This document shows, piece by piece, positions 21,229-64,000 of a DNA stretch of 64,000 nucleotides (the stretch's first letter is position 1; the number at the start of each line of letters is the position of its first letter). The stretch is taken from positions 80,256,862 to 80,320,861 of the forward strand of contig NC_080584.1 of NCBI RefSeq assembly GCF_029962835.1, written 5' to 3'. The notes under the pieces are model-generated. The model worked only from the letters and a program-made list of their open reading frames with translations, was not told where the DNA came from and made no database searches. Made by a program: the position numbers and the translations under genes. Origin of the DNA: Magnolia sinica (taxonomy: Eukaryota > Streptophyta > Magnoliopsida > Magnoliales > Magnoliaceae).

Positions 21229-21770
21229 AAGGCACCTCATGACATTACTAAGAAGTATGGGGCTGTTAAAGAGGTTGATGATTCTTCTACAAAGGCATGG
21301 CTTGAAAAGATACGCACAATGTTTATCAGGAAGGGATCAGGGTTCTCTTCTCGTAGTGTGATTACTGGGGATGCATATAAAGGGATTCATGAAATCGGTT
21401 TACCATTAGAAATTGCTCAAAAGATCACATTTGAAAAGAAAGTCACTACATACAACATGGATCATTTACAAAAACTAGTGGATGACAAATTATGTGTAAC
21501 ATATAGAGATGGTTCAGCCACTTATGCAATTAAGGAAGGTTCAAAAGGACATACATATTTGAAAGTTTGTCAAATCATAAACAGGCGTTATTTATGGACA
21601 GAGACATTGTTTTCATTAATAGGCCACCTAATACTCGTAAACATTCATTGCAAGCATTTTTTGTCTATGTGCATGACGACCATACTGTTAAGATCAATCC
21701 TATTATTTGTGCTCCCCTAGGTGTGGATTTTGATGGGGATTGCGTTCATATGCTACTTCATAGATCATAC
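21229..21770 (+). pseudogene. NRPE1-like: fragment of RNA polymerase V largest subunit
   Basis: The plus strand encodes 'DITKKYGAVKEVDDSS', 'KAWLEKIRTMFIRKGSGFSS', 'RSVITGDAYKGI', 'GLPLEIAQKITFEKKV', 'LQKLVDDKLCVTYRDG' and 'GSKGHTYLKVCQIINRR', then in another frame 'DIVFINRPPNTRKHSLQAF', 'YVHDDHTVKINPIICAPLG' and 'VDFDGDCVH'. These are hallmark segments of NRPE1, including the DFDGD metal-binding site, and fit NRPE1 better than the Pol II or Pol IV homologues as I recall them. A +2-nt change near 21588-21595 breaks the frame, and the similarity stops after 'DCVH'. The left limit looks like an old exon border ('ctacaag' before 'GCACCTCATGAC'). Only about 175 of roughly 2000 residues remain, so it is a pseudogene fragment. 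Confidence 0.85.
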
Positions 21771-25247: not shown

Positions 25248-25497
25248 TTTTTAATTTAAAAATCAGAATATTGATAAATAAATTGAACTTGATATAGGAA
25301 CAAAAGAAAGCAATATAAATGTATCAAAAGTAAAAAATAAAAGCAAATGAACAAGCATATGTAAATAAATATCAAAGATTAAAAGTTTTCCAAACCACAT
25401 TCCAAAAGGACCAACACTTTCGTGTTTGCAATTACAGTGAAATAATATTACAGATCATTCAACATTCAACCAAAAAAAATTACAAAACCGAAAATAA

Positions 25498-38474: not shown

Positions 38475-40745
38475 TCACTTACCTACAATTAGTTTAGCCC
38501 TACCAGGGCCCGGGTCTATCAGGTGAGACATTAGAAACCATACAAACGTGAGAAGCTCTCCACCTTTACTAAGGCGTTGAGCATGGGCTATCCCGCTACA
38601 GTTACATGCAGCGTAGGATAGCATCTCAACCCATACCTCACAGATCAGGGCCCATCTCTGCGTCACCTTCACTTTATCTTTCAGCTTCTTCGCGAGAATA
38701 CATGCATCGAACAACACCGATTTGCTCCAGTCTCCTTTCACTTCGATGGGATCTGCTACCGTATTCACCGATAGTAGATCTTCGCATGCGGACTGTCGTT
38801 CCTTTTCCCGTTCTTCCTCCGAATATTGGGAAGAGCAGAAAATGGGGGATGCAAGGTACGGGTTCTCCCTAAATGGCTTTCGGAGGAAGAATTTTCGGGC
38901 TTCAGCACTGGTCTCCAGGAACCTAATCACGGCCGATGATGACATCATGGAAGGCTGCATGACGAGAAGATATATCATGTAATCAGATATAAGCTTACTT
39001 AGTCGGCGATGTATGGTTGTTGAAATGGGGACTGCCTCATTTTCTTGGTTGACTGCTTCATTTTCTTGGTTAAGGTCGTTTGGTCCCTTGTTTTTACTGT
39101 TGTTATTTGTGGGAGGCGTCTTGCCAACGTCCTCGTTGGTGTAATAACAAATGGTGGTGGCGATATGCCACCTTAGCAGACTCTCATCGAATTCGACCTG
39201 GATGCTGTCGCCAAACTGACTGAGGTAGCCCCTCTGCTCGAGGGCCCATTGGCCCCGGACGGCCTTGGGCTGTTTCATGATCTCGGTTTTCTTCTTCAAC
39301 TCGTGAAAGATGATATTCTTCATATCTTCGGAGACAGCTACATGGTAGGTGTATTGCATCTCCTTCATGAGGTTACCCAACATTTTGCATGGCAGCACAG
39401 CCAAGGCCTTCTGGATGTACGAGGCCTCAAAGAACTTCCCACAGAGGGTGTGTCGATTAGCAATCCGTCTCAGGTACTGATCATGTTGAGGGATACAAGT
39501 GTCTATCAGATTATATTGCATGATGGATACGGACCATCGATCATGAGGCAGTAAGTTAGCTATGATCTTAAAGACTATGGGACCGAGCATTGGAATCTTG
39601 ACGGCAGACCAGTTGGAGATCAGGAGCATGATAAAAGCCACAAAATCCAAGGCAATAGCGCCACCTAGCAACGTGTAGGTGATGGCGATGTCGAGTGGGA
39701 GGAAGTCGCGTTTGTTGGTGCAGAAGAAAAGCAAGAAAGCAGTCATGATCGAGCAAGAGCAAATGGCCCGTAAGATGTAGCCGACGATATTGTGCACCAC
39801 GGCAGCCTTAGTGAAGAGCACATCGTAGATGAATTCGAGCTCGTACTCAACGACCCGGAACGCGTCCTCTGGGAACCACCTCAGGAAGGTGTTGCGGCTC
39901 TCTACCTGGTCGTGGAAGCTGGCCATGAGATCAATGATAAGGCCCTTGAAGTTCTTGAAGAAGCGGTGAGCCTTGTACATTCTCGTCAATTCGTCCATTT
40001 CCTGTTGCTGCATCTCGATATCATGGGCTTCGGGCTTTGTGCTATTCACTATCTGCGCGGGGATCCCTGCCTCTTTTTTCGACTGGTGTTCCTCCATAAG
40101 CTTGGCGTAGTTCGTACCGGGGCCCAACTTTTCAAGCATCGAGTCCCGGAAGCCATCCATGCTCGCGAGGTAGAGCGCATACGTCCGCTCTCCATACTTG
40201 ATAATCCCAGCAACAAACATGAATAGAGTCGGGGCTAGGAGCTTGTTTTTTGGCACGGAAAGCAAGAAAACGTAACCAGCCAAGCCAACCTCAAACATCA
40301 CTCCAAGCAAATGCCTAAGCCACAGCTCATTGTCTTCCATCGCAAAGGCCGTGATCGTGTCAGGTCCACCGAGGTGCAAAAGAAGGAAGGGGGCCCAGAA
40401 GGCTAGAGCGTTGTTGTTGGAGGATTTTTCAACGTTGTGCTTTGGACCACCAGAAGAGGCCATGATTTTGACGCCGGGCTTGCTGTTGCCACCGGTTGTA
40501 TCTGACGTGTCCCCTACGCTGTTGGAGAGGAGGCCCAGTGCGAAAACAGCCAACCAGTCGGCAAGCAGGTAGAGGGACCATGTGAATATGATGAGTGGCT
40601 TTGATGCCGTCCGTTTGCGTAGGGTCACCAAGAAGATGAGAAGGATTTGCACCAACAGACTACAGAGAACGAAGACCCGAACGTCCCAGTTATTCCACAA
40701 GTTTCTCACAGGCTTAGAAAATACTTCCACTCTTCCTTCTTCCAT
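38475..40745 (-). CDS. DUF4220/DUF594 multi-pass membrane protein (756 aa)
   Basis: A plant-specific family of unknown biochemical function with an N-terminal DUF4220 domain and a C-terminal DUF594 domain. The frame is intact in one exon. Numbering from the chosen Met: hydrophobic segments at about 24-43, 51-74, 112-134, 150-165 and 170-183. Family signatures are 'FWAPFLLLHLGGPDTITAF' (116-134), 'WLRHLLG' and 'IIKYGERTYAL'. Two further hydrophobic segments follow in the middle, and the DUF594 block 'MLSYAACNCSGIAHAQRLSK' then 'GGELLTFVWFLM' is near the end. The start at 40745 ('aagATGGaag') is preferred because relatives begin shortly before 'PVRNLWN'. An upstream in-frame ATG at 40793 lies inside an LTR and would add five LTR-coded residues. 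'TTGTAG|GTAAGT' at the 3' end could be a splice donor, so a short further exon is possible. A copia element begins 33 bp upstream of the ATG. Confidence 0.92.
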   Translation of the reverse strand: MEEGRVEVFSKPVRNLWNNWDVRVFVLCSLLVQILLIFLVTLRKRTASKPLIIFTWSLYLLADWLAVFALGLLSNSVGDTSDTTGGNSKPGVKIMASSGGPKHNVEKSSNNNALAFWAPFLLLHLGGPDTITAFAMEDNELWLRHLLGVMFEVGLAGYVFLLSVPKNKLLAPTLFMFVAGIIKYGERTYALYLASMDGFRDSMLEKLGPGTNYAKLMEEHQSKKEAGIPAQIVNSTKPEAHDIEMQQQEMDELTRMYKAHRFFKNFKGLIIDLMASFHDQVESRNTFLRWFPEDAFRVVEYELEFIYDVLFTKAAVVHNIVGYILRAICSCSIMTAFLLFFCTNKRDFLPLDIAITYTLLGGAIALDFVAFIMLLISNWSAVKIPMLGPIVFKIIANLLPHDRWSVSIMQYNLIDTCIPQHDQYLRRIANRHTLCGKFFEASYIQKALAVLPCKMLGNLMKEMQYTYHVAVSEDMKNIIFHELKKKTEIMKQPKAVRGQWALEQRGYLSQFGDSIQVEFDESLLRWHIATTICYYTNEDVGKTPPTNNNSKNKGPNDLNQENEAVNQENEAVPISTTIHRRLSKLISDYMIYLLVMQPSMMSSSAVIRFLETSAEARKFFLRKPFRENPYLASPIFCSSQYSEEEREKERQSACEDLLSVNTVADPIEVKGDWSKSVLFDACILAKKLKDKVKVTQRWALICEVWVEMLSYAACNCSGIAHAQRLSKGGELLTFVWFLMSHLIDPGPGRAKLIVGK

Positions 40746-40773
40746 CTTGGCAAAAATATCAAACATGTTAGAA

Positions 40774-40778
40774 GTAAG
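40774..40778. repeat. target duplication GTAAG, left copy
   Basis: GTAAG directly precedes the copia LTR at 40779 and recurs at 46271-46275 after its other end. Confidence 0.92.
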
Positions 40779-40928
40779 TGAAGAGTTGAACATGAAAAGT
40801 AAATGTAATTTTATTTATTACAAATACTTGTACACAATATGGGTACACTTTACAACACTCACAACTATCACTCTTGAATGACAACTCTCACACACAAGAA
40901 AAAATTCTTTTGAACTCTTAATACTTGG

Positions 40929-46498: not shown

Positions 46499-46582
46499 TG
46501 GACTGTTGGCATATTTTCTAAAGCTGTCCATTTTTCCTATGTTTGAGGCTTATCAGATGAACTAACCTCCCCGGGTTTGAAT

Positions 46583-46745
46583 CCTTAACCTCAGTGGTAG
46601 ACTCTGAGGAGTTTCAACATGAGGTCTTGGGTTCAATACTCATAAATGGTAAAATCCTGCGACGGCAGTGTGCGTGGGTGTGTGTGTCAGGTGCATGTGT
46701 TAAAAAGAAAAAAATTAAAAAAAGAAGAAGAAGAAGAAGAAGAAC
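46583..46745 (+). mobile_element. tRNA-derived SINE (copy A)
   Basis: An A-box-like 'ctcagtggtagac' and a B-box-like 'gggttcaatactc' are followed by a body with 'gtgtgcgtgggtgtgtgtg' and an A-rich (GAA)n tail. The same sequence is at 58705-58907. A minus-strand relative is at 47929-48095. Confidence 0.55.
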
Positions 46746-46776
46746 TAACATCACCGAATTTTGGACGTTGCATAGC

Positions 46777-47321
46777 TTCCACCCAGGATCCAGCCATGTG
46801 GGTGCAACCCTGACCGTGGGACCACCTCAATATATGACTTGTATATCAATGCAGCCATACATTTTTTCAGCAGATTTTAGAACATGGTCCCACAAATAAG
46901 GCAGTTCCAAATCTCAGCTGAACAACACCACGGCAAAACAGTGGTGATTGAACGGCAACCATTAAAAGCTTCCTACGGCCCAATGTAATTTTTATTTGTT
47001 ATCCAAACTGTTGATTAGGTCATAGAGACCTCCACGAAGGGAAAACATAAATAGTAGCCTGTTTATTTGCCATCCAACCTGTTGATTAGGTCAGGCATAC
47101 TTGGAAGAGGAGAAAACAGAAATATCAGCTTAATCCAAAATGTTGGTGATCCCAGTAGTGTGTTCACCTGAGATTTGGACCTGACACATTTTCGAGTCCA
47201 TGCTATAAAGTGATATTAAAAAATGGATGTACGCTATGTATAAAATGCACACTGGCGGGCACATCAGAGCACGGAGCAGTAGCCAGCTACTGTCAGCATC
47301 ACTAGGCAATCCGCGTCTGTG
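46777..47321. mobile_element. fused pair of hairpin MITEs (copy A)
   Basis: The left part matches the start of the B-copy hairpin at 58943-59222. The right part matches the end of the B-copy hairpin at 59557-60049. Sequence between the two is absent, which gives a composite hairpin-like unit. Confidence 0.7.
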
Positions 47322-47744
47322 GCCAAAGGGGCTGAGATGGGTCACTTACTAGATTCAACGGTGGCCGGATCTTGTGGCCCACTCTCCAAGTGTTTTGCGC
47401 CCTTCAAAGATAAGCTTTGACGTCACCACACCAAACGAGCCAAATCTACGACTTATTATCAAGCATCATCGTATATTAATTTATAGCACGCCAAAAGCAG
47501 AACAGCCAAACGTAAGAGGAAAGAGTCTTCTCCCCGCAAGCAAGGAAGATGTGCATCTTTATTCCCATGTACCAGCTGAAAAAGTGCAGATTTCCTAGTT
47601 TCACACGTGTGTAGTCCATATCTCATCTACTCACAATCACACGTGCCAACATAACACATTTTTCTGAGATCTGAGCTTTCCATCTGGTCACCACTTGGAT
47701 AAGACCCTGGTGGTAAAAATATTACGCTAATTCGCTCAATAAGC
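47322..47744. other. no gene recognised (copy A)
   Basis: Non-repetitive spacer with GATAAG at about 47410 and 'acacgtgt' motifs near 47604 and 47640. It could be an old promoter region, but no gene is attached. Confidence 0.3.
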
Positions 47745-48215
47745 ATCAGCCAAGATGGTGCCGCCCTTACTGTAGGGCACACTTTGATGTATGAATTCTA
47801 AATCGACTCCGTCTATCCGTTTTTACAATTTATTTTAGGACATGAGCCTAAAAACGCAGCAGATCCAAATTTCAGGTGGACCGCAGTGGTGGTTGTACAC
47901 CCTTACCATTAAAAGCTTCCTAAAGCATTTTATTATTATTTTTATTTTTTAACACACGCACGGTACCCCATGTACTCCCGCACTCACGCCATAGTGGGAT
48001 TTCACCACTTATATATAGGTAGTCACCCCAGGACCTCAAGTTGAAAAAGGTCTACCATAAGGCAAGGACTTGAACCCTGAGACTTGGTTCTGGTTGATTA
48101 TTGGGCATGTGCCCTAAATTGATTTAGCAAATCGGATGGACGGCGTGGATATAGAATACATACATCAAGGTGGACCCCATGGTAAGGTCTGCATATCTCA
48201 GGTGAGGTGGGCCAT
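47745..48215. mobile_element. hairpin MITE split by a SINE (copy A)
   Basis: The left arm is 'gggcacactttgatgtatg' and the right arm is 'cggatggacggcgtgg', then 'acatacatcaaggtgg'. A minus-strand SINE (47929-48095) sits inside it. Confidence 0.65.
47929..48095 (-). mobile_element. tRNA-derived SINE (copy A)
   Basis: On the minus strand it reads 'agggttcaagtccttgcc', 'atggtagac', 'cttgaggtcctgggg' and ends in '(TAA)n/A-rich' after 'gtgcgtgtgttaaaa'. It is the same family as the plus-strand SINE at 46583. Confidence 0.55.
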
Positions 48216-48623
48216 GTGGTGTGTATGTGTGGTGTTGGGGAAAAAGTAATTAAGTCCACCGAGGAAAGATTGGTTTCAATGTAGTAGATCTGGCACAGAG
48301 GGCATTTGGCGGCTGAAATTGGGATTAGACTCATTCCTGATTATGCAGGATAACTATCCAAACGGGCCCGTAGACCATTATACAATTTTATTTTATTTTT
48401 TAAATACATTACGTGTTGTTGTTAACCACGTAGCATCGTTTCACATTAATTAGAAATTGAAATCTCAACTATGGCAAAACCATTTTCGCTGCGGGAACCA
48501 ACCCTACGGGTCTAAAGCATGGCATCAATTTGTAAAGATGGCTATCGGTAGTCTTCTCCCTCCCATGCACGAAAGCATTTACTCTCTCTTTATCTCTTTA
48601 TCCCTCTTTTCCTTATCTTAATT
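48216..48623. other. no gene recognised (copy A)
   Basis: AT-rich spacer shared with copy B (60966-61340). The CACTA insertion follows. Confidence 0.4.
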
Positions 48624-48979
48624 CACTACACCAAAATTGTCCGTCTGGTACGGTCGGGATTTTAGTTCAGAAACGGCTCTAAGCCGTTTCTATTTGAAAT
48701 GGTAATCAGCCGTACTGGACTAATTGCTGCTATACGCTGTTATTTCAATTTTTTTGTTGGTGTGTCCTAATTGAGTCTTGGATGTTCTTATTTATTATTA
48801 TTATACTTTATTGTTTTATTTTGAAACAGATGGACGGAATGGATTCTATTATTAACCTCTGAGTGGACCTCAAATGGCTCGAGAGCCATATTACTATAAA
48901 GTACTGTAGACTACCAAATGTTTTACTTCATTTCCATACGCAAAAACGCCCTAATCCCTCATTTAACATCCACCGCCGT

Positions 48980-49230
48980 CTGCGTCTTCCTCTCTGTCTC
49001 GCTCTCCCTCTCTCAAGCTCCCTCGATCTCCCTCCCTCGATCTCCCGATCTCAACCCTCTCTCTCGATCTCCCTCTCCCGATCTCAACCCTCTCTCTCGA
49101 TCTCCCTCTCCCGATCTCAACCCTCTATCCCGATCTCAACCCTCTCTCTCGATCTCCCTCTCCCTCTCCCGATCTCAACCCTCTCTCTCGATCTCCCTCT
49201 CACTCTCCCTCCCTCTCCCGATCTATGGTG
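48980..49230 (+). repeat. CT-rich 33-bp tandem repeat, likely captured 5' leader
   Basis: About five units of 'cccgatctcaaccctctctc' plus 'gatctccctct' lie in tandem. It precedes the eIF3a-like piece and resembles a plant 5' leader expanded by tandem duplication. Confidence 0.65.
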
Positions 49231-49247
49231 AGTGTTTGATTTGTACG

Positions 49248-49387
49248 GCAGAGGCCGAACGGCGTAAGAAGGAAGATGCAGAGCAGAAAGCCAAGCTGGA
49301 TGAGATCGCTGAGAGGCAAAGGCAGAGGGAGAAGGAATTAGAAGAGAAGGAGAGGTTTGAGGAGAGAAGCTCTCCTAGGAAGGACAT
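49248..49387 (+). pseudogene. eIF3a-like: captured fragment of translation initiation factor eIF3a
   Basis: An acceptor-like 'ttgtacggcag' precedes codons for 'AEAERRKKEDAEQKAKLDEI', 'AERQRQREKELEEKERF' and 'EERSSPRKD'. This matches the charged C-terminal helical region of plant eIF3 subunit a (relatives read 'DEIAEKQRQRERELEEKE'). eIF3a scaffolds the 43S pre-initiation complex; this piece is only about 45 residues. The identification is good for such a low-complexity region, but another charged coiled coil is possible. Confidence 0.65.
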
Positions 49388-49543
49388 CGGAGCCGTTCAC
49401 ACGGTCTGTGATTTTAGGTAAATCTTGTGATTTGGGAGTACTAAATGACCATTGTTTAAGTTTAACCAGAGCTGGAGTAACACATCTGTAATGGGATGAT
49501 TGATGCTGTTTTTGTTGAGGTTATATGTGCAGGCTAAGATCTG

Positions 49544-49684
49544 GCAACTGAACAAACTGCGAGCCGGATGATTAATCTCCTGAGGCAGCTTCAGCAGACA
49601 TTGCCACCTTCGACCCTTGCATCGACCTGGTCTTCCTTGCAGCCCAAGCAGGAGCTTGCATTGCAATCCATCCTGTCATCCTAA
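49544..49684 (+). pseudogene. captured C-terminal exon, importin/karyopherin-like
   Basis: After a plausible acceptor ('ttatatgtgcag', 49521-49532) the frame reads 'ATEQTASRMINLLRQLQQTL', 'PPSTLASTWSSLQPKQELAL' and 'QSILSS', followed by a stop at 49682-49684. This looks like the conserved C-terminal tail of a plant importin-beta-type nuclear transport receptor. The family is recalled rather than searched. It is a natural gene end, with following sequence (49685-50300) that may be the captured 3' UTR. Confidence 0.5.
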
Positions 49685-52600
49685 GGATCTCGTCTCGAAA
49701 CTATTTGCTGAAGCTTTAGGTGAGTGATCCGTTCTCTAGTGAAAGTACATTTCACAGCCTTACTAGTTGAAATTAGCAGACGAGATGATAACAGTAGACA
49801 TTGCAAGAATGTCATTGGCGCTTGCATACGCCCCGTCTAGATGTTGGCGAAGGCAGGAGGAATGCTAAATCCGGATCATTCATCTTCCAAGCACAAAACA
49901 GAGTTGCATCATACGGGTCGATGTGGCCCATCTGGGGGATCCAGTAACCTTTTCTGTGTGGGTTCTATCCTGCTAATGTCTTCTCAGTGGATGTTCTATA
50001 CTAGAATCTAGCTGGCCCAGTCATTGGGTGAGTGGCACATGCACGCACGTTGAATATAGACCATTGGTCTGTCTGCTTCTGTGTACATGTGTGGCCGCCT
50101 CATGGATGGAATGGCTAGATTTTTAGTCCCTCTCTTACAAAAGCTCTTGATCTTGAAAACAAGTGGTGCATTGTGATTGGAGGGGCACCTAGCATTAGCA
50201 TTTCATGGGAAGCTAGATGAGTTACCACAATCTCAAGCATGTAGGTGTGTATCCAGAAGTTGGTACCGTTTAAATCCTTTAAGATCTGTTTGGTTGCCAC
50301 GTATAAATGAGTTCAACTCATTTTATTTGATTGAATATATACATTCATCTCATTTGATCATATGAATTAGTGAATGACATTTAGTAGGGATTAAAAATAT
50401 AACCAACAATTTATATAATACATAGCAAAATGAGATGAACTCAATTTTCCAGAAGGCAATTTTTTTATTTTTTTTTAAATTTATATAATACATAGCAAAA
50501 TGAGACTATTACTTTGCTGATGATCTTGTTGTGCAGCAGAGATCATCTTCTGAAAAATGAATTTAGTACACTCTGATTCAGTATACGTTGAGTAAGTGCT
50601 CTATCATGAGATACTGCTGTATGTTTCATATACGCAACTAAATAGCATTTTCGGAATGCCAGGTATATGCAGATGTGCAGCAAAGACTGATTTATATAAT
50701 TGATAGTTCTTCAAAATTTTGTACTTCATATAATCTTTTATCTGTCTATAATTTTCTCCAATTATTGGAAAGTACACATATTCCTATCCAAGTATACCTT
50801 TTACTCATAGTACCATTTAAAATCGAAGACAATTTTGGTGAACTGATCCATTGTGCATAATGACAAATTTGAATTTTGGTGAACTAATTCATCATGCATA
50901 GATGACCAACTTCATAATCTGATTAGAAAAGACAGTTTGGTCCCATCTGATCATTAAAACATTGTTGGGGATTGACTCCAATGCTTCTTTTTTATATGTT
51001 GCTAAATTAACATTGTAGTTTGTTATAAATTAGAAGAGAGAAAATATGATAAACATGGACCCAAAGGGCCAATTCTTACATAAGATGGATAGATGAGCAT
51101 GCATTAGACGTACATAACTGTTTCAGTCCCTACTTCACATTCCACTGATCAAACCAACTGCTGCACAATTCTATACAGTATGAAATCCATCTTGTTCTGT
51201 GCCTAGAAAGAATCAAAGTGGCACCAGCTGATTGATAAAAGTAGCCTTTGAAATAGATTACAAATTGTGTATAAATGCAAAGCACAAGACTGCATGGAAG
51301 TATATTCTCATATTGAAGCTGAACATTCATCTGAAAATCCATATCCATATTCATCTCATATTGAATCTTGTCTATACGATTTATTTATCTATAATAAATA
51401 TGGTCTTATACCTTTCAAAAAGAAAAGGAAAAAAAAAAAGATCTATAAGTTTAGATGAAGACACTAATTTGGCTCTAGCATAACTTTTTAAGAAATTATA
51501 AGTCAGGCATTAACTCATACAATCTACATGTGTGGTTACATAAATTGTATACAGCTAGAAAAACTGAGCATGGATGTGACTTGTACAAACAGAAAAACTG
51601 AGCATGGTATACAAACAGAAAAACTTTAAAAAAAGTAGGTTTGTATTAATTACATTGCCAATGTTAATTGTTCTCTTTAGCTTATTATGTAACTAGAGAA
51701 TTAAGATTTTCAGAAAATTTCAACATTTCTCGCCTGCTTAAAGAGTTGGATAAATAAATGTATCATACACCACACACAAGATGTGGTTGGAACGTAACTA
51801 GTCATTTACTCACAATTTCTTACCTTTCATGGAACCAGCAAGTTCCATCTCTTTAAGAACTGTCATGGATCAGTGAATTCCTTTTTAATTTTAATTATTT
51901 ATATAAATAAGTGATGTTGTACAAACACATTTAATTGTTTAAATAAGTGTTGTTGTACACATTTAAGCAATTTCTTATATATTTCGATATTTATTCTTTA
52001 AATGTTTATATTTATGATTCTTTGTTAACTGATGTTGTTAATTAGTATTTAGGCTACCTAGTGGTTTAGCAATGCATCCCCCATTTAAATTTTGTCACTT
52101 CATTTTTATTTTAGTTTGTTATCATATGTTGCAGAATGTCGTCATGGGTTTTGATTTTTAAGCTTTTTTTTGAAAAAATTTCAACTGATAATCATGTGAG
52201 TTGTAAAATCTTATGATCAGTTTTAGTGTCCTACCTTCATCACTCTTTTCTGGATAATATCATTATCTGGAGGGTTGGCCATTCCTTCTGAGTTGGATTT
52301 GGACTTTGGTGTGCTGTTATTATGGTTTTTCTGTCTTTATTAATAGCTTTTGTTTCTATGATCAGTGGTTTTCTTGTTCTTTTGAGAGCCAAAGGAGAGT
52401 CGTTCGAAGAAGTAAGTGGTCATATGTAACATTTTATAAAAGAAAGAAAAATATGTGATGTTTCTGAATATTAAAACACAAGCATGATTGAGAGATTTCC
52501 TTCTGATGTGTGCTTTTATTTTCCTACCACTCTGTTTTTACATAAATTCTACGTTCATAATTTATTATTACTTTTATTTTTACAGGCCTGAAGCTACTAA

Positions 52601-52799
52601 TGTAAATCATTGAAACACCTTTTATTTTTTTTGATGTAATCAGTCAACTTACAACAAATTTAAACTATTGATGGACTGTTTCATGGTTGAAAATATTGTT
52701 TCTGAAGACCAATGTGGCCAACGATACTAATATCTGGTTAGATAATTTAAACTTTGAATTTTGCACAATTCAATACAGGTTTGGCATTTCTTTGTGTAG
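49685..52799. other. CACTA interior of intron/UTR-like sequence
   Basis: AT-rich sequence resembling plant introns and 3' UTRs, probably captured with the exons. A possible small exon lies near 52389-52416 ('LRAKGESFEE', followed by GTAAGT). The phrase 'acatagcaaaatgaga' occurs twice (about 50420 and 50490), a short local duplication. No transposase was seen. Confidence 0.4.
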
Positions 52800-52892
52800 G
52801 GTGGTATTGAAGATGGTGAAGAACCAAGAGCTGCAGCCCTTAGAGAATTAAGAGAAGAAACTGGAATAACGTCAGCTGAAATTATTGCAGAA
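52800..52892 (+). pseudogene. captured Nudix hydrolase exon with intact splice sites
   Basis: A 31-codon exon is bounded by a TTTGTGTAG acceptor and a GTAAGT donor. It encodes 'GGIEDGEEPRAAALRELREE' then 'TGITSAEIIAE', a complete Nudix box (G-x5-E-x7-REUxEExGU). The sequence is closest to the plant NUDT26/27-type diadenosine-polyphosphate/RppH-like hydrolases ('GG.DEGEDPR.AA.RELREET'). The exon is phase 0 and uninterrupted, so splicing into another transcript would insert a Nudix box in frame. On its own it cannot form an enzyme. Confidence 0.85.
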
Positions 52893-53008
52893 GTAAGTTT
52901 CTTAAGTTCTACAAAATCCTTTTAGTAGCTACAATTTTTAGTTTCAATTTTGTTAGCATCCTTTTACAGATTTTTAATACGGCCTTGTATTTACATTCAA
53001 TGTTACAG

Positions 53009-53200
53009 GCAAAGTTAAAGGAGACTCGGTATCACAGTATAGAGGTGTTACAAGGTCAGTAGGAGCCCTCTCTCTCCTCTTGTTTTTTGGTTTAGTTTTT
53101 TGAATTGTTGGCCTGACTGCTAAGATATGTGGTTTGTCTGTGTTTTCCATTGATTGGGATTCCTTGCAACAATAGATCCTGGTAGGAATCTAACTCTCTT

Positions 53201-53243
<43 letters not shown>

Positions 53244-53566
53244 CATGAATGATAATGATAATGATAACAGTAACTGGTTGGGTTTCTCACTCTCTCCTCA
53301 CATGAACATGGATGCATCTACAGACCCACATCATCATCATCATCACTAACACCATCGTCAGCAACATCATCATCATTATTATCAAACACAAGCTGCAGCT
53401 ACTGTTTCTCCTGCAGTTCCAACCAGCTTCTTTCTAGCTCCTCCTCAGATGGAAACACAAGGTGGGGCCCTTTACTCCCAGTTGTCTGTAATGCCACTGA
53501 AATCTGATAACTCCCTTTGTATTATGGAAGCTCTTACAAGATCACAACAAGGTGAAGGTATGTTTC
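53009..53566 (+). pseudogene. ANT-like: captured AINTEGUMENTA/AIL-type AP2 transcription factor pieces
   Basis: Two pieces appear. 53009-53054 has a TGTTACAG acceptor and encodes 'KVKGDSVSQYRGVTR', the start of an AP2 domain that ends at the usual intron position. From an ATG at 53245 the frame reads 'MNDNDNDNSNWLGFSLSPHM', then a His run, an in-frame TAA at about 53347, then 'TSFFLAPPQM' and 'LYSQLSVMPLKSDNSLCIME' plus 'ALTRSQQGE'. 'SVMPL.SD.SLC.MEAL.RS' is a hallmark of AINTEGUMENTA. The N-terminal exon lies downstream of the AP2 piece, the reverse of the real gene order, so pieces were shuffled during capture or come from two genes. A (GA)n tract precedes the ATG (53206-53240), as in a leader. 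Confidence 0.8.
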
Positions 53567-53950
53567 TCTTCTTCCATCTCTTCCTTTCAGTTTCTTTTAA
53601 ATAGCTTCTAAAAATAAAGTCTATGTCTATCTCTTTGTTGATGGAAGGAGTGATGCCGGAGTTGAAGAGCCCAGAGTTACCAGAGAGCAGCCTTTATAGG
53701 TAAAGCACACAAATCTAATTTCCCTATGGTTAGATATATGTCCATATGTGCTTTTGACACGTTTAGTTTCCTTCAACACGTTTATAGGTAAAGCCGTGAG
53801 GTGATAGCTTCATGAGACAGTCCATCTTCGACTGTATGATCGCCGGTTCGATCCCGGTTTTCTTCTGGAGGTGTATGGCCTACCTGTAGTACAAGTGGCA
53901 TTTACTGGTTTTCTTCTGGAGGCGTACGGCCTACCTGCAGTACAAGTGGT
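53567..53950. other. CACTA interior, short tandem duplication
   Basis: A 51-bp tandem duplication ('ggttttcttctggagg' to 'acaagtgg') lies at about 53857-53950. A tRNA-like stretch with 'ggttcgatcccgg' is at about 53805-53865. An exon-like segment 'VMPELKSPELPESSLYR' at about 53648-53700 ends at GTAAAG and is unassigned. Confidence 0.4.
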
Positions 53951-54164
53951 TTTCATTGATAGAAGGGCTGTGAACAACAAAACCTCAATTCAAGCCCTTT
54001 TGGAAAGGCTGGGAGAGGAAAGAGTGAAGAGGATGAGAGATAAGATAGTCTATATACCGAAGTTTGTGTACACCACCCCCAAAGAGGGGTTGGCCGGTAT
54101 GAAGAATGCGTTTGATGTTTCCCTGGAAGGGGTACTGAGAAGATTCCAGGAGCAGAGGACATAA
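53951..54164 (+). pseudogene. captured C-terminus of a GT47 exostosin-like glycosyltransferase
   Basis: The frame encodes 'FIDRRAVNNKTSIQALLERL', 'GEERVKRMRDKIVYIPKFVY', 'TTPKEGLAGMKNAFDVSLEG' and 'VLRRFQEQRT', then a stop. The layout (MR..., IP...VY, P, ...DAFD-like motif near the end) matches the C-termini of plant GT47 proteins such as xyloglucan galactosyltransferases, which act in the Golgi on cell-wall polysaccharides. Only the last ~70 residues are present, so the assignment is tentative. Confidence 0.5.
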
Positions 54165-54731
54165 ATGGAATTAAAAAATTGGGAATGGGAAATCTTGTAT
54201 GTTGTATTTTGTACTTATCTTGGGTGGGGTATATTGATGGAGGGACAGGATGTTCAAGTAGATCGGTGGACGGTTAGATGGATGTGGTTGGTGGATTTTA
54301 TATTGATTGGTTAGCTATAGAGAGTTATTAGTTGCTACCACAATCTGTGGTTAAAGATTATTATGTGTGTGAATCATTCTATTGTCTTTTTCTTCTATTT
54401 GTCTAATTATCTGGCATACATACAAGTAGATTACTACACCACTCTCTCTCTCATACAATGAACAAAGGAGTTTAAAATTGTTATTAAAATTCTGTCCTAA
54501 AATCTGACCGTTGGCAACATTAATAAGCATTCAAAACCGTTTCTGAAATTGTGCCTAAAATGTGACCGTTGGCACCAGAACGGTTTAAAACCGTTCCAAA
54601 AACGGTACCCAAAACGGTTCTGAACTGTTCCTGATTTTCTGCGACGCCTCATTTAGGAATGGAATTAAATCGTTCCTGAATCATTTAGGGACGGTTTAAA
54701 ACCGTTCCTTAACGACGATTTTGGTGTAGTG

Positions 54732-55245
54732 TAATGACCACTTTAACACTTTTCAAGTGACTTGATGGAGATGAAAGTGAGTAAGCTCCCTCTCTCTCCT
54801 CGGGCGCACCTGCCAACGTGGGACTCATGTATCTGATCAGGGCAGTTTATTAGGTGTAGAACCAATTGGCATGGTTGGATTAAAAAATAAAATAAAATCA
54901 TTCCAGGATAGTCATCATATGGGCTACATTGGCTATATTCTAATCATTCAATTTCGTCTTTCGTTTCTACATTTTTTTTTTTTCAAACCTTTTATTCACA
55001 TATAGAAGGGAGGATTACATTCAGGGTGCGGCTTGGGAAATTTTTTTTTTCCAAGTGCAGCCTATCGTATAGGCCTGGGGGTTACTCTTTGGCCCTGGTG
55101 CGGGATGGAACAAAACTGAGTTAGCCTTTCTTAAAGGAACCCAGCCCGTCCTATGTAGGACAATTTCCTCTCGAGAAGCGATAGAAAGTTCCATGATGGA
55201 TGTGAAGACCTGGATTGACTCATTGGAGCTACCTAGGCGGGCCAG
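54732..55245. other. copy A resumes after the CACTA
   Basis: This aligns with B 61341-61851. It contains no gene. Confidence 0.6.
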
Positions 55246-55780
55246 TGATGTAGAACCTGTCACAGACATGTTCTTATCATGGTTGAGCCAAAAGAAGATG
55301 GACCGTAAATTAACCATAACTTTTGATCCGGGTATTGTTATAGGGAGCACAACCTATCAATCTTTACTGAAATGGGCCATCCGAGGTGAACCAATCCACA
55401 AAGTGGGTCGCATTTGTCCGTTTCGTCAAAAAACGCGCGCTTTCAGCTCAAAAACGATTTTTTAGGAAAATTTAACTATTTTTAGTAATTTCAATTTTTA
55501 AAATATTTTTAGAGTTTTAGATTTTCTTTCCTTTTAAAAATAACTTTTAGTTATACTAGGACTCTTCTAGGGAAAGTTTATTTGCAATTTTTATTTTTAG
55601 AAATTAGGCCTTAAGAGAGTTTTATTAGAATTAGGATTTTTATTAGAGCTAGAATTTTGTTATTTTTGGTAATTACGAATTTTAGTTTATTTTTTCTTTA
55701 TTAATGGTGTAAGGAGACACATTAGAGGATTATCAATTATTCATTAATCAATTTCAAATTTATTAGAATTTATTTCTATT
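55246..55780 (+). mobile_element. Ty3/gypsy LTR piece (copy A), fossil
   Basis: Starts 'tgatgtagaacctgtcacag' and matches the first ~535 bp of the gypsy 5' LTR at 61852. Copy A of the duplication ends inside it. Confidence 0.85.
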
Positions 55781-58620
55781 TGGTTGATTTTAATGGTGGG
55801 AATTTCTATCTTAACTATTTACCATGGTGTAGCCCAATCGAGTGTTGAATTTACCTTATTTTTAAGCCCTTGTCCAAACATGAGGTGGCCCACATGATGG
55901 ACAGGATGGATCTACTCAACATGAATTCTCTCCTTCTAGGTTTACGAAAGCAATTCCCCGTTAACCTTTGTAGGTTCATGCAAACTTTATACTAATATTT
56001 AGGAAGAGGAGACGTGTGAAGGGAGAGTAAATGTAAGATGGGTTGTATGCTATTTTAGATTTGGACCATCCAACTTAAAATCAGATCCATGCATTAGATA
56101 GATTACACGTCAACATGCCAGGGGCAAAAAAGAATTTGATGATCTCATGATCAATCATGTCAAATACTTATGAAAAGTGTTGGTTGCTAATAAAACAGTC
56201 CAACGATCTGGATTTAACATGCATACATACTTTCACTTGTACTTTCCTTACAAGCGTAGTTTCCTAGTTTTTGGTACATAATTTCTCTTTAATGAGTCTT
56301 AACTAATGAATGGCCTAGATCTTTAACATGTGCGTCACTTTACATACTAATAATGTTTTATTAAAACTACAGAATGAAATGATACAAATCCATACTAAAT
56401 CTCAGTCAGAGGACACTACACTATTGATAGCAGACGAAGCATGTTTTAGGGCCCTTGGCTCTAGATCTGGCTACATCCGTGGTCTTGGGCATGGGGAGGT
56501 GCCTGCATCGACCCATCGTATCCATGTTGATTTGGATAAGGCTACAAGGAGGGCCGAGCAGGCAGAGGCAATGTTGGTTGAGTTGCAAGAAATGATAAAT
56601 GATATGAAGACATGGCAGACTCAATTGGAGGAAATGTTGCACACCCTCATGTCACAGCAACCCCAATCACATCCTTAGTAGTAAGTTGAATGCCATATTT
56701 AAATTATGTAAGTAGTATAAAATAGTCACTAATAATATTTTATTTTAATAATTTTACAGATTTTTCTGCGGATTGGTGTTATCTTCCTAGGCCGCACCAC
56801 ATTATCGATGACACACATTTCTTTTTTTTATTGGACAATTTGAACATGTGTACTTTTTTATGTTCCGGATAATTATAAATTTAATTATTTTGTTTGATCT
56901 CATTACTTTTTATATTTCAATGGATGATGATGAATATCGATTAATACATGTTATTTTGTTTGATTAAGTTGGTTCAAGCAAAAAATATTGATGCCATTTT
57001 GTGATATGTAATGGTGACATGTTAGCTCATCGCTAATATTTTGTGACAAGTTATTAGGTCGTGGCAAATAATTAAATCATTAGCGACGACTTATTGTTTT
57101 TGTCACTAAATAGAATTTGTGACATTGTGTTTGTGATATAATTGATGACGATCAACAATCGTCGCCACAAAGGCTTTTGCAATGACTTTATGATTTCTTT
57201 AATAATAAGTGGACTCGTCGCAATACATCTTTATTTGCGACGAGTTTTATGTTTAGCGACATTTTATGATATGAAATGACGATGTGTAAACTTGTTGCAA
57301 ATAAGCTATATTTAGTGACAATTTATTAAGTCGTCGAAAATAATTAGTATTTGCAACAAAATTAGCGACAAGCAATACTCATCGCAAAAAAGCTTTTGCG
57401 ACAAGTGTAAAGTTATTAGCGACGATGAAGACTTGTCGCAAAACGTCTTTATTCGCAATGACTTTATATGCAATTGCGACATGTAAACTCGTCGCAAATA
57501 AGCTTTATCTAGCGATGCTGTATTAAGTCATCGCAAATAATTATTATTTGCAACAATATTGGAGATAAGCAATACTCGCTGCAAAAAACTTTTTATGATA
57601 AATTTGAGTTTGTTAACGACGACGAGGACTTGTCACAACACGTCTTTATTTATGACGAGTCTTATATTTAGCGACGTTTTACGATATACAATAGCGACAT
57701 GTTAACTCGTCACTAATAAGCTCTATTTAGTGATGATGTATTAAGTCGTTGCAAATAGTTATTATTTGCAATAAAATTGACGACAAGTAGCAATGCTGTA
57801 AAAAAACTTTTTGTGACAAATTTGGGTTTATTAACGACGACGAAGACTCGTCCCAACACGTCTTTATTCGTGATGAGTCTCATATTTAGCGACGTTTAAC
57901 GATGTGCAATGACGATGTGTCAACTCGTCACTAATTAACTATATTTTGTGACAAGTTATTAGGTCATCGCAAATAGTCGAGTTATTGGTGATGAGTTGCC
58001 GTTTTCATTGCTAAATAGAATTAGTGACGCCGTATTTGCATCAAACGTGGCGACGAGCATAGTCGTCGCTAAAAGTTTTTAGTGATGACGAGGACTCGTC
58101 GCAAAACGTCTTTATTCATGACGAGTCTCATATTTAGTTACGTTTTACAATATGCAATGGTGACGTGTCAACTCATCGCTAATTAACTATATTTTGCGAC
58201 AAGTTATTAGGTCGTCACAAATAATTGAGTTATTGGCAACGAGTTACCGTTTTTGTCGTTAAATAGAATTAGTGTCGTCGTATCTGCATCAAATATGGCG
58301 ACGAGTACAGTCGTCGCTAAAAGTTTTTAGCGACGACGAGGACTCGTCACAACACGTATTTATTTGTGATGAGTCTCATATTTAGCGACGTTTTACAATA
58401 TGCAATGGCGACGTGTCAACTCGTCGCTAATTAACTATATTTTGTGACAAGTTATTAGGTCGTCGCAAATAGTTGAGTAATTGGTGACGAGTTGCCGTTT
58501 TCGTCACTAAATAGAATTAGTGATACCGTATCTGCATCAAATGTGGCAACGAGCATAGTCGTCGCTAAAAGGTTTTAGCGACGAGTTGACTTGTTGTGAA
58601 AAGACTGAATTGTTGTATTG
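55781..58620 (+). mobile_element. CACTA remnant with a Transposase_24-type exon and long subterminal array
   Basis: A diverged hairpin-family piece (about 55781-55930) precedes it. An exon with Transposase_24-type similarity lies at 56373-56678. From about 57000 to 58600 there is a subterminal array of 'gacgacgaggactcgtcgc', 'gtcgctaaaag' and 'gacgtgtcaactcgtc' motifs with an approximate 200-250-bp period (for example 57617, 57838, 58083 and 58333). The right edge 'ttgttgtattg' (58610-58620) is a one-base variant of a CACTA end (CACTACAACAA inverted). The left terminus was not found. Confidence 0.65.
56373..56678 (+). pseudogene. last exon of a CACTA accessory transposase (Transposase_24 type)
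   Basis: After an AAACTACAG acceptor the frame reads 'NEMIQIHTKSQSED', 'ADEACFRALGSRSGYIRGLG', 'HGEVPAST' and a coiled-coil tail 'KATRRAEQAEAMLVELQEMI', stopping at 56678. The 'GYIRGLGHG' block followed by a helical tail is typical of Transposase_24 (Ptta/En-Spm) proteins that accompany plant CACTA transposases. Upstream exons are missing, so it is a remnant. Confidence 0.65.
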
Positions 58621-58704
58621 CGTGGACTGTTGGCATATTTTCTAAAGCTGTCCATTTTTCATACGTTTGTGGCTTATCAGATGAACTAACCTCACCGGGT
58701 TTGA

Positions 58705-58907
58705 ATCCTTAACCTCAGTGGTAGACTCTGAGGAGTTTCAACACGAGGTCTTGGGTTCAATACTCATAAATGGTAAAATCCCGCTACAGCAGTGTGCGTG
58801 GGTGGGTGTGTGTTTCGGGTGCGTGTGTTAAAAAGAAAAATTTTAATAAATTAAAAAAAATAAAATAAAATAAAAAAAGAAGAAGAAGAAGAAGATGATG
58901 ATGATGA
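58705..58907 (+). mobile_element. tRNA-derived SINE (copy B)
   Basis: The duplicate of the SINE at 46583-46745, with a longer A-rich tail ending in (GAA)n(GAT)n. Confidence 0.55.
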
Positions 58908-58942
58908 ACTAACATCACTGAATTTTGGACGTAGAATAGCTT

Positions 58943-59410
58943 CCACCCAGGATCCAGCCATGTGGGTGCAACCCTGACCGCGGGGACCACCTCAATGTAT
59001 GACTTGTATATCAATGCAGCGATACATTTTTTCAGCAGATTTTAGAACATGGTCCCACAAATGCGGCAGTTCCAAATCTCAGCTGAACAACACCACTGCA
59101 AAACAGTGGTGATTGAACGGCAACCATTAAAAGCTTCCTAGGGCCCAATGTAATTTTTATTTGTTATCCAAACTGTTGATTAGGTCATAGAGACCTCCAC
59201 GAAGGGAAAACACAAATAGTAGCTTTGATACAAACCCTCTTTGGCTCCCAATAAGTTTTTAACGATGAGAATCCAATCCTCCATTGTGTGCATGGTCCAC
59301 CTGATAATTGGATCTGCCTCAGTTTTTCGACCATGCCCTAAAATTAGCTGGTAAAATGGATGGACGGTGTCGATATACAATACATACATTAAGGTGGGCC
59401 CCACGGTCAG
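58943..59410. mobile_element. hairpin MITE (copy B)
   Basis: The left side has 'ggaccacctcaatgtatgac' and the right side has 'aaaatggatggacggtgtc', then 'acatacattaaggtggg'. Only its left half survives in copy A. Confidence 0.65.
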
Positions 59411-59556
59411 TGTGGCACGATCTGAAGTTGCAGCTAACGGGGCGTCCTTGAATTAAGGAGTAGCCCATCTACAAAGTGCAGCAAACCTAATGCATGGCTT
59501 TGACGTGTTCCAGATTTGAATTTTTATGCTTTCAAAGTTTCAAAGCAGGGCCAAAG
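59411..59556. other. spacer between hairpins (copy B only)
   Basis: About 145 bp of non-repetitive sequence that is absent from copy A. Confidence 0.5.
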
Positions 59557-60049
59557 GACGCGGATTGCCAGCTGACACTGCTAGTAGCCCCCTGGCTACC
59601 GATCAGTGCTCTTTGAGCCCCACCATGATGTATGTGTTTTATTCACACTGTCCCTTCATTTTTTTCAGATTATTTTAGCATTCGATCCAAAAAATGAGTC
59701 AGATCCAAGTATCAGGGGGACCACGCCACAGGAAAACAGTGGTGGTTGAGCACCCACCATTAAAAGCTTACTACAGACTTTCCATCCAACCTGTTTATTT
59801 GCCATCCAACCTGTTGATTAGGTCAGACATACTTGGATGAAGAGAAAACAGAAATATCAGCTTAATCCAAAATGTTGGTGATCCCAGTAGTGTGTTCACC
59901 TGAGATTTGGACCTGACACATTTTCGGGTCCATGCTATAAAGTGATATTAAAAAATGGATGTACGCTATGTATAAAATGCATACTGGCGGGCACATCAGA
60001 GCACGGAGCAGTAGCCAGCTACTGTCAGCATCACTAGGCAATCCGCGTC
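59557..60049. mobile_element. hairpin MITE with GACGCGGATTGCC ends (copy B)
   Basis: Terminal inverted repeats GACGCGGATTGCC and GGCAATCCGCGTC bound a 493-bp hairpin. 'ggccaaag' lies directly left of it and again 3 bp to its right. This could be a slightly eroded 8-11-bp target duplication of Mutator-like type, which would give the superfamily. Confidence 0.7.
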
Positions 60050-60474
60050 TGTGGCCAAAGGGGCTGAGATGGGTCACTTACTAGATTCAACGGTGGCCGG
60101 ATCTTGTGGCCCACTCTCCAAGTGTTTTGCGCCCTTCAAAGATAAGCTTTGACGTCACCACACCAAACGAGCCAAATCTACGACTTATTATCAAGCATCA
60201 TCGTATATTAATTTATAGCACGCCAAAAGCAGAACAGCCAAACGTAAGAGGAAAGAGTCTTCTCCCCGCAAGCAAGGAAGATGTGCATCTTTATTCCCAT
60301 GTGCCAGCTGAAAAAGTGCAGATTTCCTAGTTTCACACGTGTGTAGTCCATATCTCATCTACTCACAATCACACGTGCCAACATAACACATTTTTCTGAG
60401 ACCTGAGCTTTCCATCTGGTCACCACTTGGATAAGATCCTGGTGGTAAAAATATTACGCTAATTCGCTCAATAA
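60050..60474. other. no gene recognised (copy B)
   Basis: The counterpart of 47322-47744. Confidence 0.35.
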
Positions 60475-60965
60475 GCATCAGCCAAGATGGTGCCGCCCTT
60501 ACTGTGGGGCACACTTTGATGTATGAATTCTAAATCGACTCCGTCTATCCATTTTTCCAGTTTATTTTAGGACATGAGCCTAAAAACGCAGCAGATCCAA
60601 ATTTCAGGTGGACCGCAGTGGTGGTTGTACACCCTCACCATTAAAAGCTTCCTAGAGCATTTTATTATTATTTTTATTTTTTAACACACGCACGGTACCC
60701 CACGTACTCCCGTACTCACGCCATAGTGGGATTTCACCACTTATATATAGGTAGTTATCCCGAGACCTCATGTTGAAAAAAGTCTACCATAAGGCAGGGA
60801 CTTGAACCCTGAGACTTGGTTCTGGTTGATTATTGGGCATGTGCCCTAAATTGATTTAGCAAATCGGATGGACGGCGTGGATATAGAATACATCCATCAA
60901 GGTGGACCCATGGTAAGGTCTGCATATCTCAGGTGAGGTGGGCCATGTGGTGTTGGGGAAAAAGT
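60475..60965. mobile_element. hairpin MITE split by a SINE (copy B)
   Basis: Left arm from 'ggggcacactttgatgtatg' and right arm to 'catcaaggtggaccc'. The minus-strand SINE lies at 60661-60828 within it. Confidence 0.65.
60661..60828 (-). mobile_element. tRNA-derived SINE (copy B)
   Basis: The duplicate of 47929-48095. The B-box-like 'agggttcaagtcc' and tail are conserved. Confidence 0.55.
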
Positions 60966-61851
60966 AATTAAGCCTACCGAGGAAAGATTGGTTTCAATGT
61001 AGTAGATATGGCACAAAGGGCATTTGGCCGCTGAAATTGGGATTAGACTCATTCCTGATTATGCAGGATAACTATCCAAACAGGCCTGTAGACCATTATA
61101 CAATTTTATTTTATTTTTTAAATACATTACGTGTTGTTGTTAACCACGTAGCATCGTTTCACATTAATTAGAAATTGATATCCCAACTATAGCAAAACCA
61201 TTTTCACTGCGGGAACCAACCATACGGGTCTAAAGGATGGCATCAATTTGTAAAGATGGCTATCGGTATTCTTCTCCCTCCGATGCACGAAAGCATTTAC
61301 TCTCTCTTTATCTCTCTTTATCCCTCGTTTCCTTATCTTAATGACCACTTTAACACTTTTCAAGTGACTTGACGGAGATAAAAGTGAGTAAGCTCCCTCT
61401 CTCTCCCCGGGCACACCTGCCAACGTGGGACTTATGTATCTGACCGGGGCAGTTTATTAGGTGTAGAACCAATTGGCATGGTTGGATTAAAAAATAAAAT
61501 AAAATCATTCCAGGACAGTCATCATATGGGCTACATTGGCTACATTCTAATCATTCAATTTCGTCTTTCGTTTCTACATTTTTTTTTTTTTCAAACCTTT
61601 TATTCACATATAAAAGGGAGGATTACATTCGGGGTGTGGCTTGGGGAAAAAATTTTCCAAGTGCAGCCTATCGTATAGGCCTGGGGGTTACTCTTTGGCC
61701 ATGGCGCGGGATGGAACAAAACTGAGTTAGCCTTTCTTAATGGAACCCAGCCCGTCCTATGTAGGACAATTTCCTCTCGAGAAGCGATAGAAAGTTCCAT
61801 GATGGGTGTGAAGACCTGGATTGACTGATTGGAGCTACCTAGGCGGGCCAG
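60966..61851. other. no gene recognised (copy B)
   Basis: Spacer that includes the CACTA empty site at 61331-61348 and an AT-rich lead-in to the gypsy LTR. Confidence 0.5.
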
Positions 61852-64000
61852 TGATGTAGAACCTGTCACAGACACGTTCATAGCATGGTTGAGCCAAAAG
61901 AAGATGGACTGTAAATTGACCATAATTTTTTATTCGGGTATTGTTACGGGGCGCACAACCTATCAATCTTTACTGAAATGGGCCATCCGAGGTGAACCGA
62001 CCGATAAAGTGAGTTGCATCTGTCCGTTTCGTCAGAAAACGCATGTTTTCAGCTCAAAAATGATTTTTTAGGAAAATTTAACTATTTTTAGTAATTTCAA
62101 TTTTTTAAATATTTTTAGAGTTTTAGATTTTCTTTCCTTTTAGAAATAACTTTTAGTTATACTAGGACTCTTCTAGGGAAAGTTTATTTGCAATTTTTAT
62201 TTTTAGAAATTAGGCCTTAAAAGAGTTTTATTAGAATTAGGATTTTTATTAGAGTTAGAATTTTGCTATTTTTGGTAATTACGAATTTTAGTTTATTTTT
62301 TCTTTATTAATGGTATAAGGAGACGCATTAGAGGATTATCAATTATTCATTAATCAATTTCGAATTTATTAGAATTTATTTCTATTTTCTGCTTTTTCTT
62401 CGTGGATTCGAGAAGTCCCTGTGAAGAGTCTAGAGAAGTTCCGTAGATTCGGAATAGTTATCCTCTTGAGGAAGACAGTGCTCGACCTCATGTCCTCCCC
62501 TGTGTCAGTTTGGTATCAAAGCAAGTTTTTTCCTCGGATTAATGGCTTCTAACGACATGTCGGGCAACAATCCCATGGGCGATGCTTCAGGGAATTTATC
62601 TTTAACGGCGGCAGCTTTCGAAGCAGCACGGCGAGAGAATCGGCAAGCCATGCAAGGGCTGCAGGCTTCCATCAATCGCATGGTAGATCATTTGGTGGAG
62701 GCCCTAGGGCAGATCTGTATTCATGGTGGTGATCCACCACTAGCAATTGCTGGAATTCGTAATTACACTGATCTTAGGGCGATACTATCAGTGAACCACA
62801 AGATGAATCACGAATATAAGATGAAAGTCGATTTTCCTAGTTTTAATGGCCAACTCTACTTCAAGGACTTCCTCGATTGGTTGCTTGAAGTCGAACGTTT
62901 CTTCGACTACATGAACATCATAGAAGAAAAGAAAGTTAAACTTGTGGCCTACAAGTTGACAGGCAGAGCTTCAGATTGGTGGGAACAACTTCAACTCGAG
63001 CGGACGAGATGGATGAAGACGCCAATCCGCATGTGGTCGCGGATGAAGAAGTTATTATGCATGCGATTCTTCCCTACCAATTATGATCAAGTATTATTCT
63101 AACAAAATCAAAATTATTGGCAAGATAACCAATCATTAAAGGGTTATGCAGAGAAATCCTATTATTTGTCGACGAGAGATGACCGAGTCAAAATGGAGTT
63201 AAAACAGACCACTGGATTCATCAGGGGTGAACATGTGACCCCTATGGGAATGGTGAACCAACTCAAGACTTCTAAAGTTGAGGGACAATCTCTCATGACT
63301 GAACAGGCCTTTGTTAAACAATATGAGGAAACAGGAGATATATATGCATTAGTTGAAGAGAAAAAATATGTGGAGCCTGTAAATATCTTAGAGGATTTGG
63401 AACCGATATCGCAAGAGTTCAAGGGGGTTATGCTCGATGAGCTCCCTAATAAATTACCTCCCATACGAGATATACAAAATCACGTTAATCCCGTCTCAGG
63501 GGCAAGTCCGCCTAATTGCCCACATTATTAGAAAAAATATGAAATCTTGAAGACAGGTGTGAAGGAACTAATCGATATTAGTCAAGTCAAGGAAAGCATA
63601 AGTATATATGAATTGTGTTGGCTTAAGAGCTTAATGCCAAGTACAAAAAAAGGGTTAATGAATATCGGCGTCAAAAGTTATCTCAGACTCATGTACCAAG
63701 TCTCTTGCGTAACTCAAGGACGAGTTTTTTTTCAAGTGGAGGGGTCTGATGTAAAACCTGTCACAGACACGTTTCTAACATGGTTGAGCCAAAAGAAGAT
63801 GGACCGTAAATTGACCATAACTTTTGATCCGGGTATTGTTACGGGGCGCACAACCCATCAATCTTTACTGAAATGGGCCATCCGATGTGAACTAACCCAC
63901 ATAGTGGGTCGCATCTGTCTGTTTCATCAGAAAACGCGCGCTTTCAGCTCAAAAACGATTTTTTAGGAAAATTTTATTATTTTTTGTAATTTTGATTTTT
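61852..64000 (+). mobile_element. Ty3/gypsy LTR retrotransposon, short and broken, runs off the window
   Basis: The 5' LTR (61852-62507) runs from TGATGTAGAACC to CTGTGTCA. A Met-tRNA primer-binding site TGGTATCAAAGC lies at 62511-62522. Internal parts are a gag-like region (62542-63102, with 'DWLLEVERFFDYM' and 'LTGRASDWWEQLQ') and a piece from just before the reverse transcriptase (about 63166-63620, 'LPPIRDIQNHVNPVSGA'). A purine tract precedes the 3' LTR, which starts at 63747 and is cut by the window end. The internal region is only about 1.24 kb, so it is broken and non-autonomous. The first ~230 bp of the two LTRs differ at roughly 23 positions, so it is several million years old. Confidence 0.9.

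Follow-up and report, generated by a model that had tools for sequence, protein, structure and literature searches.

The closest described counterpart of the element reported here is Tgm-Express1, a 5.7-kb CACTA transposon of soybean described as carrying parts of five unrelated host genes, introns as well as exons, with chimeric splicing shown by reverse transcription PCR (PMC1947982). The Pack-CACTA and other Pack-TYPE elements of Arabidopsis, rice, and maize are described as non-autonomous transposon ends enclosing host DNA, sometimes from several loci (PMC8903248), and fusion of neighboring elements is proposed there as a route of capture (section 9). In Chenopodium, a CACTA element is reported to have captured an 80-bp AP2-class fragment upstream of its transposase-associated domain, and the same source mentions a transposase-bearing CACTA element for Magnolia ashei (PMC8978399). 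Here, we describe a non-autonomous CACTA transposon of Magnolia sinica, 6108 bp long, at positions 48624-54731 of a 64-kb stretch of contig NC_080584.1 (hereafter C12); "the window" is this whole stretch of analyzed DNA. Like Tgm-Express1, it is a CACTA element with fragments of at least five unrelated genes, although host and genes differ, and with such a near-twin already published, a reading made from the sequence alone overstated its case in calling five sources in 6.1 kb striking. Beyond Tgm-Express1, the Magnolia case offers relatives with subsets of the cargo and two likely parental genes. The element is both longer and more of a composite than the examples worked through in section 9 of the Pack-TYPE account (PMC8903248), and it contributes to that picture the scrambling of pieces from a single gene and an apparent order of capture. 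Like the Chenopodium element, it carries sequence from a flower gene of the AP2 class (PMC8978399), but it holds pieces of six genes and gave no transposase domain in nine frames. No account of gene-capturing CACTA elements in Magnolia was present among the literature matches listed.

We regard this element as almost certainly a Pack-CACTA transposon. It contains host gene DNA with likely parents elsewhere in the genome, AINTEGUMENTA (ANT) on C16 and XLT2 on C6, and it moved as a unit after capture: a whole-element sister on C11 (L009) is identical at 5839 of 6060 aligned bases (96.4%) and has its own TCA/TCA duplication. The explanation we prefer as a whole, mechanism included, is a Pack-type CACTA element whose cargo was built up in steps at the DNA level, and we put its probability at about 0.65.

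The perfect CACTA-type ends proposed by the sequence-only reading are borne out by the terminal repeats and by an empty site (here and below, features of the element and its empty site are on the plus strand). The left terminal inverted repeat, CACTACACCAAAAT (48624-48637), has its reverse complement at 54718-54731, a perfect 14-bp agreement, and a 13-mer of this repeat occurs only once per orientation in the window. The left flank (47058-48622) is 96.4% identical to 59790-61342 and the right flank (54732-55781) is 94.7% identical to 61339-62387; because the 6.1 kb are missing between the flanks of this second, paralogous copy, the element is an insertion, and TAAT at 61339-61342 is its empty site. 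Joined together, the flanks of the element are five bases longer than the empty site, equivalent to a duplicated AAT or TAAT plus one or two extra T. The three bases bordering the terminal repeats are ATT and TAA, so they do not form an exact target-site duplication. A clean 3-bp target-site duplication is usual for CACTA elements. Among 20 sibling loci fetched, both ends were found in seven (the right end was unseen in 13), and exact 3-bp duplications (TCA, TTA, CCA, GTA, and TTG) flank five of these seven; in the remaining two, the flanking duplication agrees in two of three bases. The flanks themselves form part of a direct duplication of 3-4 kb (46499-48622 plus 54732-55781 versus 58623-62387; pieces 92-96% identical), with the element inserted in one copy. 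A reading of these direct repeats as long terminal repeats found no support, since neither clear long terminal repeat ends nor a primer site, for the patterns searched, was found beside them.

Both ends of the element recur in relatives. Its left 601 bp (48624-49224, including a CT-rich minisatellite of ~33 bp) were searched against the 1.84-Gb assembly of 127 contigs. Scoring the best 40 of 1024 first-look candidates gave at least 40 main matches, the query itself included, at 77-100% identity on 17 of contigs C1-C19, together with 15 shorter secondary matches; 37 of the 40 main matches begin within the first 6 bases. Since this end recurs in at least 39 other genomic places, 48900-49230 belongs to the left end of the family itself and is not, as had been suggested, a captured leader. 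The family's right end (54453-54731) comprises the right terminal repeat and a subterminal array of AACGGT repeats of the kind that characterizes the CACTA superfamily: eight of the nine copies in the element lie within 54507-54701, and the left end contains no AACGGT, only two copies of the shorter AACGG. Seven relatives share this right end (L009, L010, L012, L014, L016, L019, and L024). In three loci with the same ends (L015, L021, and L026), four of six open reading frames scanned encode CACTA transposase domains, namely Transposase_21 (PF02992; 5.2e-80 in L021 and 1.4e-33 in L026) and Transpos_assoc (PF13963; L015 and L026). Nine read-through frames of the element on C12 (plus strand, 49400-54703; minus strand, 49500-52801) contained no transposase domain at E 0.1, and its longest stop-to-stop frame is 173 aa. 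These relatives suggest that it belongs to a large magnolia CACTA family and would be mobilized in trans by a tnp2-type transposase acting through the shared ends.

The ANT block (53031-53657) is the most informative part of the cargo. It begins with the end of exon 2 (SQYRGVTR) and the start of intron 2 (53031-53102), 90.5% identical to positions 1469-1542 of the likely parental ANT gene (L031, on C16; 2.5 kb compared). Next comes a piece of intron 3 by our own intron numbering (53080-53144; 92.3% to 2121-2184), followed by the 5' untranslated region, exon 1, intron 1, and the start of exon 2 (53139-53657; 94.4% to 312-820). Because this order differs from that of the gene, the pieces are scrambled, as the sequence-only reading had claimed. 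At the end of exon 2, an 11-residue exact run is common with an ANT protein, while 500 shuffles reach at most 7. The two joins within the block lie in short T-rich stretches common to both donors, a likeness noted without a chance control. The gene on C16 is the one ANT candidate compared in this way, and two further loci also match exon 1 (94% identity for C16, 91% for C14:1790959, and 90% for C1:88755387). The captured ANT sequence is broken by stops or frameshifts and had no useful Pfam match.

Parts of ANT introns 1, 2, and 3 were thus captured with the exons, and a retrocopy origin of the ANT pieces was rejected on that basis. The likely parent of the XLT2 fragment (L030, on C6) is an intact, intronless gene. 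XLT2 encodes a xyloglucan galactosyltransferase of family GT47, and the fragment (53792-54274) spans its 3' coding region and 3' untranslated region, with 88.8% identity to L030 1133-1601 that runs beyond the stop codon. It contains a 51-bp tandem duplication and stops; its best protein match is 5e-26, its Pfam Exostosin_GT47 matches (5.4e-5 and 4.2e-5) are below the curated cut-off, and a PDB search gave no useful match. Independent pseudogenes or retrocopies piled up in a plain CACTA element could account for the stops and frameshifts in the fragments of eIF3a, importin, ANT, and XLT2, and with an intronless parent, the XLT2 piece alone cannot separate a DNA from an RNA origin. The ANT introns speak against such insertions, as does the same run of ANT, sixth gene, and XLT2 in L009 and L010, and we consider this origin very improbable.

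Between ANT and XLT2 lies a segment of a sixth host gene (53659-53782), an addition to the five fragments recognized at first. It comprises an exon end and intron, 97.6% identical to L012, where it is accompanied by the next exon and where exon-intron-exon is open across the splice. An 88-bp GT..AG stretch at ~53699-53787, considered as filler, is better read for the most part as this intron. The sixth gene may resemble one for a calcineurin-binding (cabin-1-like) protein.

The remaining fragments were recognized from protein comparisons. At 49251-49404, protein alignments identify an eIF3a fragment of 25 codons that continues for 12-13 residues after a frameshift. Twenty-five proteins align with it at 61-91% identity (five at 84% or more; E-values 2e-11 to 6e-5), two of them also match beyond the frameshift, and matches P0096 and P0190 are named as eIF3 subunit A; PDB gave no match, and Pfam none of relevance. 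At 49499-49681, matches to plant proteins identify the C-terminus of importin-5 up to its natural stop. It shows up to 90% identity across 60 aa to plant importin-5 proteins and has one internal in-frame stop where relatives carry lysine, and relevant PDB or Pfam matches were absent. A Quercus suber protein (P0018) combines an importin-5 C-terminus with a Transposase_24 domain of the En/Spm type (1.6e-9). Importin-5 and a CACTA element may have come together independently in oak, or the gene model may be in error. The third fragment is a NUDT25-type Nudix exon (52800-52895), bordered by a splice acceptor, a splice donor, and intron-like sequence and supported by Pfam (NUDIX, 2e-9), by PDB (lupin Ap4A hydrolase 1f3y, 1.7e-11), and by plant Nudix 25 proteins. 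Its reading frame is open, and it also occurs in L009, L010, and L028. All pieces in the element lie on the plus strand, where the sequence-only reading had placed most of them. Four of the pieces (eIF3a, importin, ANT, and XLT2) are disrupted, and the Nudix piece consists of a single exon, which makes a protein product of the cargo unlikely; the fragments, mostly broken, are probably passengers.

These E-values and the ANT and XLT2 genes found make chance similarity untenable. An assembly artefact might be suspected from the long direct repeats in the window, but the composite also occurs on C11 with its own TCA/TCA and its right half on C9, all within one assembly, and we consider artefact or chance the least credible of the explanations weighed here.

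Relatives with subsets of the pieces, which the sequence-only reading had recommended as a guide to the order of capture, were found and do suggest one. A genome search with ANT through XLT2 (53020-54165) gave 43 matches from the best 40 of 93 candidates, among them L009 (93%), L010 (90%), loci with ANT only, and loci with ANT intron, sixth gene, and XLT2; nine of the 43 cover roughly the sixth-gene segment alone, and one of the nine adjoins an ANT match (L032). The run from ANT through the sixth gene to XLT2 recurs in L009 and L010. On C9, L010 has the same NUDT25-ANT-sixth gene-XLT2 block and right end as the element on C12, with a different middle. A 9814-bp element, L016, carries the eIF3a-importin stretch in its left part (89.9% identity) and, near its right end, a different part of ANT. 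Finally, L032 (1.8 kb) has the same scrambled ANT order with ~120 bp more of ANT exon 2, followed by the sixth-gene segment in the manner of L012; the element on C12 is without 160 bp of this arrangement, and the 1.8 kb of L032 examined contain no XLT2 sequence. A Pfam scan of plus-strand frames of L010, L012, L014, and L024 found only NUDIX and GT47 (L010) and one weak match (L014).

Some annotated genes of this species also touch on these sequences. An NCBI gene model named CRL5 (P0107, a prediction) is 98% identical to L010 over 110 of 133 aa, so caution is due with M. sinica gene models bearing the names CRL5 or ANT, which can represent transposon cargo. In three further M. sinica proteins on other contigs (P0129, P0002, and P0123), sequence from ANT exon 1 is attached to other sequence, and these models, too, may be transposon cargo. 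In P0129, the partner is a protein-kinase C-terminus (2.7e-5). The N-terminus of P0002 may derive from a frameshifted ABC transporter, with which its letters are compatible (Pfam was at chance level), and that of P0123 may derive from a pentatricopeptide repeat protein, for which Pfam gave no match.

Taken together, these loci suggest the following assembly. ANT pieces would first have been captured and scrambled beside the sixth-gene exon and intron, an arrangement found in L032. The block common to L010 would then have resulted from loss of ~160 bp, a join to the XLT2 3' end, and NUDT25 upstream, and this block may have been joined to a left half with eIF3a and importin-5, as seen in L016, before the composite moved as a unit to give the copies on C11 and C12. 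The mechanism may have been fusion or recombination between family members together with microhomology-driven joining. Repeated capture or template switching, which the scrambled ANT order had first suggested, is favored by the relatives with subsets and by the T-rich joins.

Alternatively, one very large ancestral element may have gathered all fragments once, with present elements as its internal-deletion derivatives. Small internal segments shared with the element keep the same order in L011, L012, L020, and L028, the 160 bp present in L032 are missing from the element, and L016 is 9.8 kb in size, all points in favor of this history. However, identity between the element and L010 is uneven, at just 83-85% in the left end (83% in the left 370 bp) versus 92-95% in the NUDT25-ANT-XLT2 block (95.2% for NUDT25-ANT and 92.0% for XLT2 to the right end), which pure deletion does not yield. 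Moreover, all modules of the element were seen together in L009 only, among 20 loci of which 13 had no right end seen. A possible internal relic of the right terminal repeat, GACAATTTTGGTGAACTG (50828-50845), matches the reverse complement of the left terminus at 16 of 18 positions, with a similar stretch at the corresponding place in L009 and L016; in a test made post hoc, two or fewer mismatches arose in 1 of 1000 Markov shuffles and three or fewer in 15 of 1000. Because of the uneven identity and this possible relic, we favor fusion or recombination over one trimmed ancestor by about 2 to 1, and we consider a single ancestor rather unlikely.

Several points weigh against the stepwise assembly that we prefer. 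L032 is known from 1.8 kb alone, its placement within a CACTA element is not shown, and its position as ancestor and not descendant rests on parsimony, not proof. Likely parental genes were located for ANT and XLT2, not for eIF3a, importin-5, NUDT25, or the sixth gene. The collinear segments in L011, L012, L020, and L028 count here as well, as does the want of an exact 3-bp duplication directly beside the ends on C12. The relic, besides its post hoc test, has no AACGGT array beside it, and no internal relic of the left end was found in the element (best, 6 mismatches in 18).

A broader form of stepwise assembly is that the magnolia family constitutes a standing system for exon shuffling, in which ANT, the sixth gene, NUDT25, XLT2, eIF3a, and importin-5 would be modules circulating among many elements by fusion or recombination, with new joins made by microhomology-driven template switching, also between distant parts of one gene. 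We hold this extension only tentatively, with the odds somewhat against it. There is as yet no settled account of how DNA transposons gather fragments from unlinked genes, and a 2026 review refers in its section 7 to a capture route for unlinked genes as "yet undiscovered" (PMC13317346); if true, exon shuffling in this family would be a concrete case of such a route. The new value of the element lies in its sibling series and likely parents in one genome, and its interest in the mosaic family as a whole. Because likely parents, a scrambled possible intermediate, siblings with subsets, and the finished composite share one genome, capture order and junction chemistry are directly approachable.

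An Rfam search of the window gave nothing informative, and several open frames and gene remnants were seen outside the element. A gag-like open reading frame (PF03732, just under the cut-off) follows the second copy of the flanking duplication, at 62470. Remains of a hAT-type transposase, with BED zinc finger, hAT RNase-H fold, and dimerization domains, lie on the minus strand at 24528-27516, and a fragment of RNA polymerase Rpb1 domain 2 (PF00623, 6.5e-10) lies on the plus strand at 21205-21720. A 668-aa open frame of the NB-ARC resistance type, with a charged and repetitive tail (9703-11709, plus strand), and a 779-aa open frame with DUF4220 and DUF594 (38475-40814, minus strand), the latter apparently a host gene, were also present.

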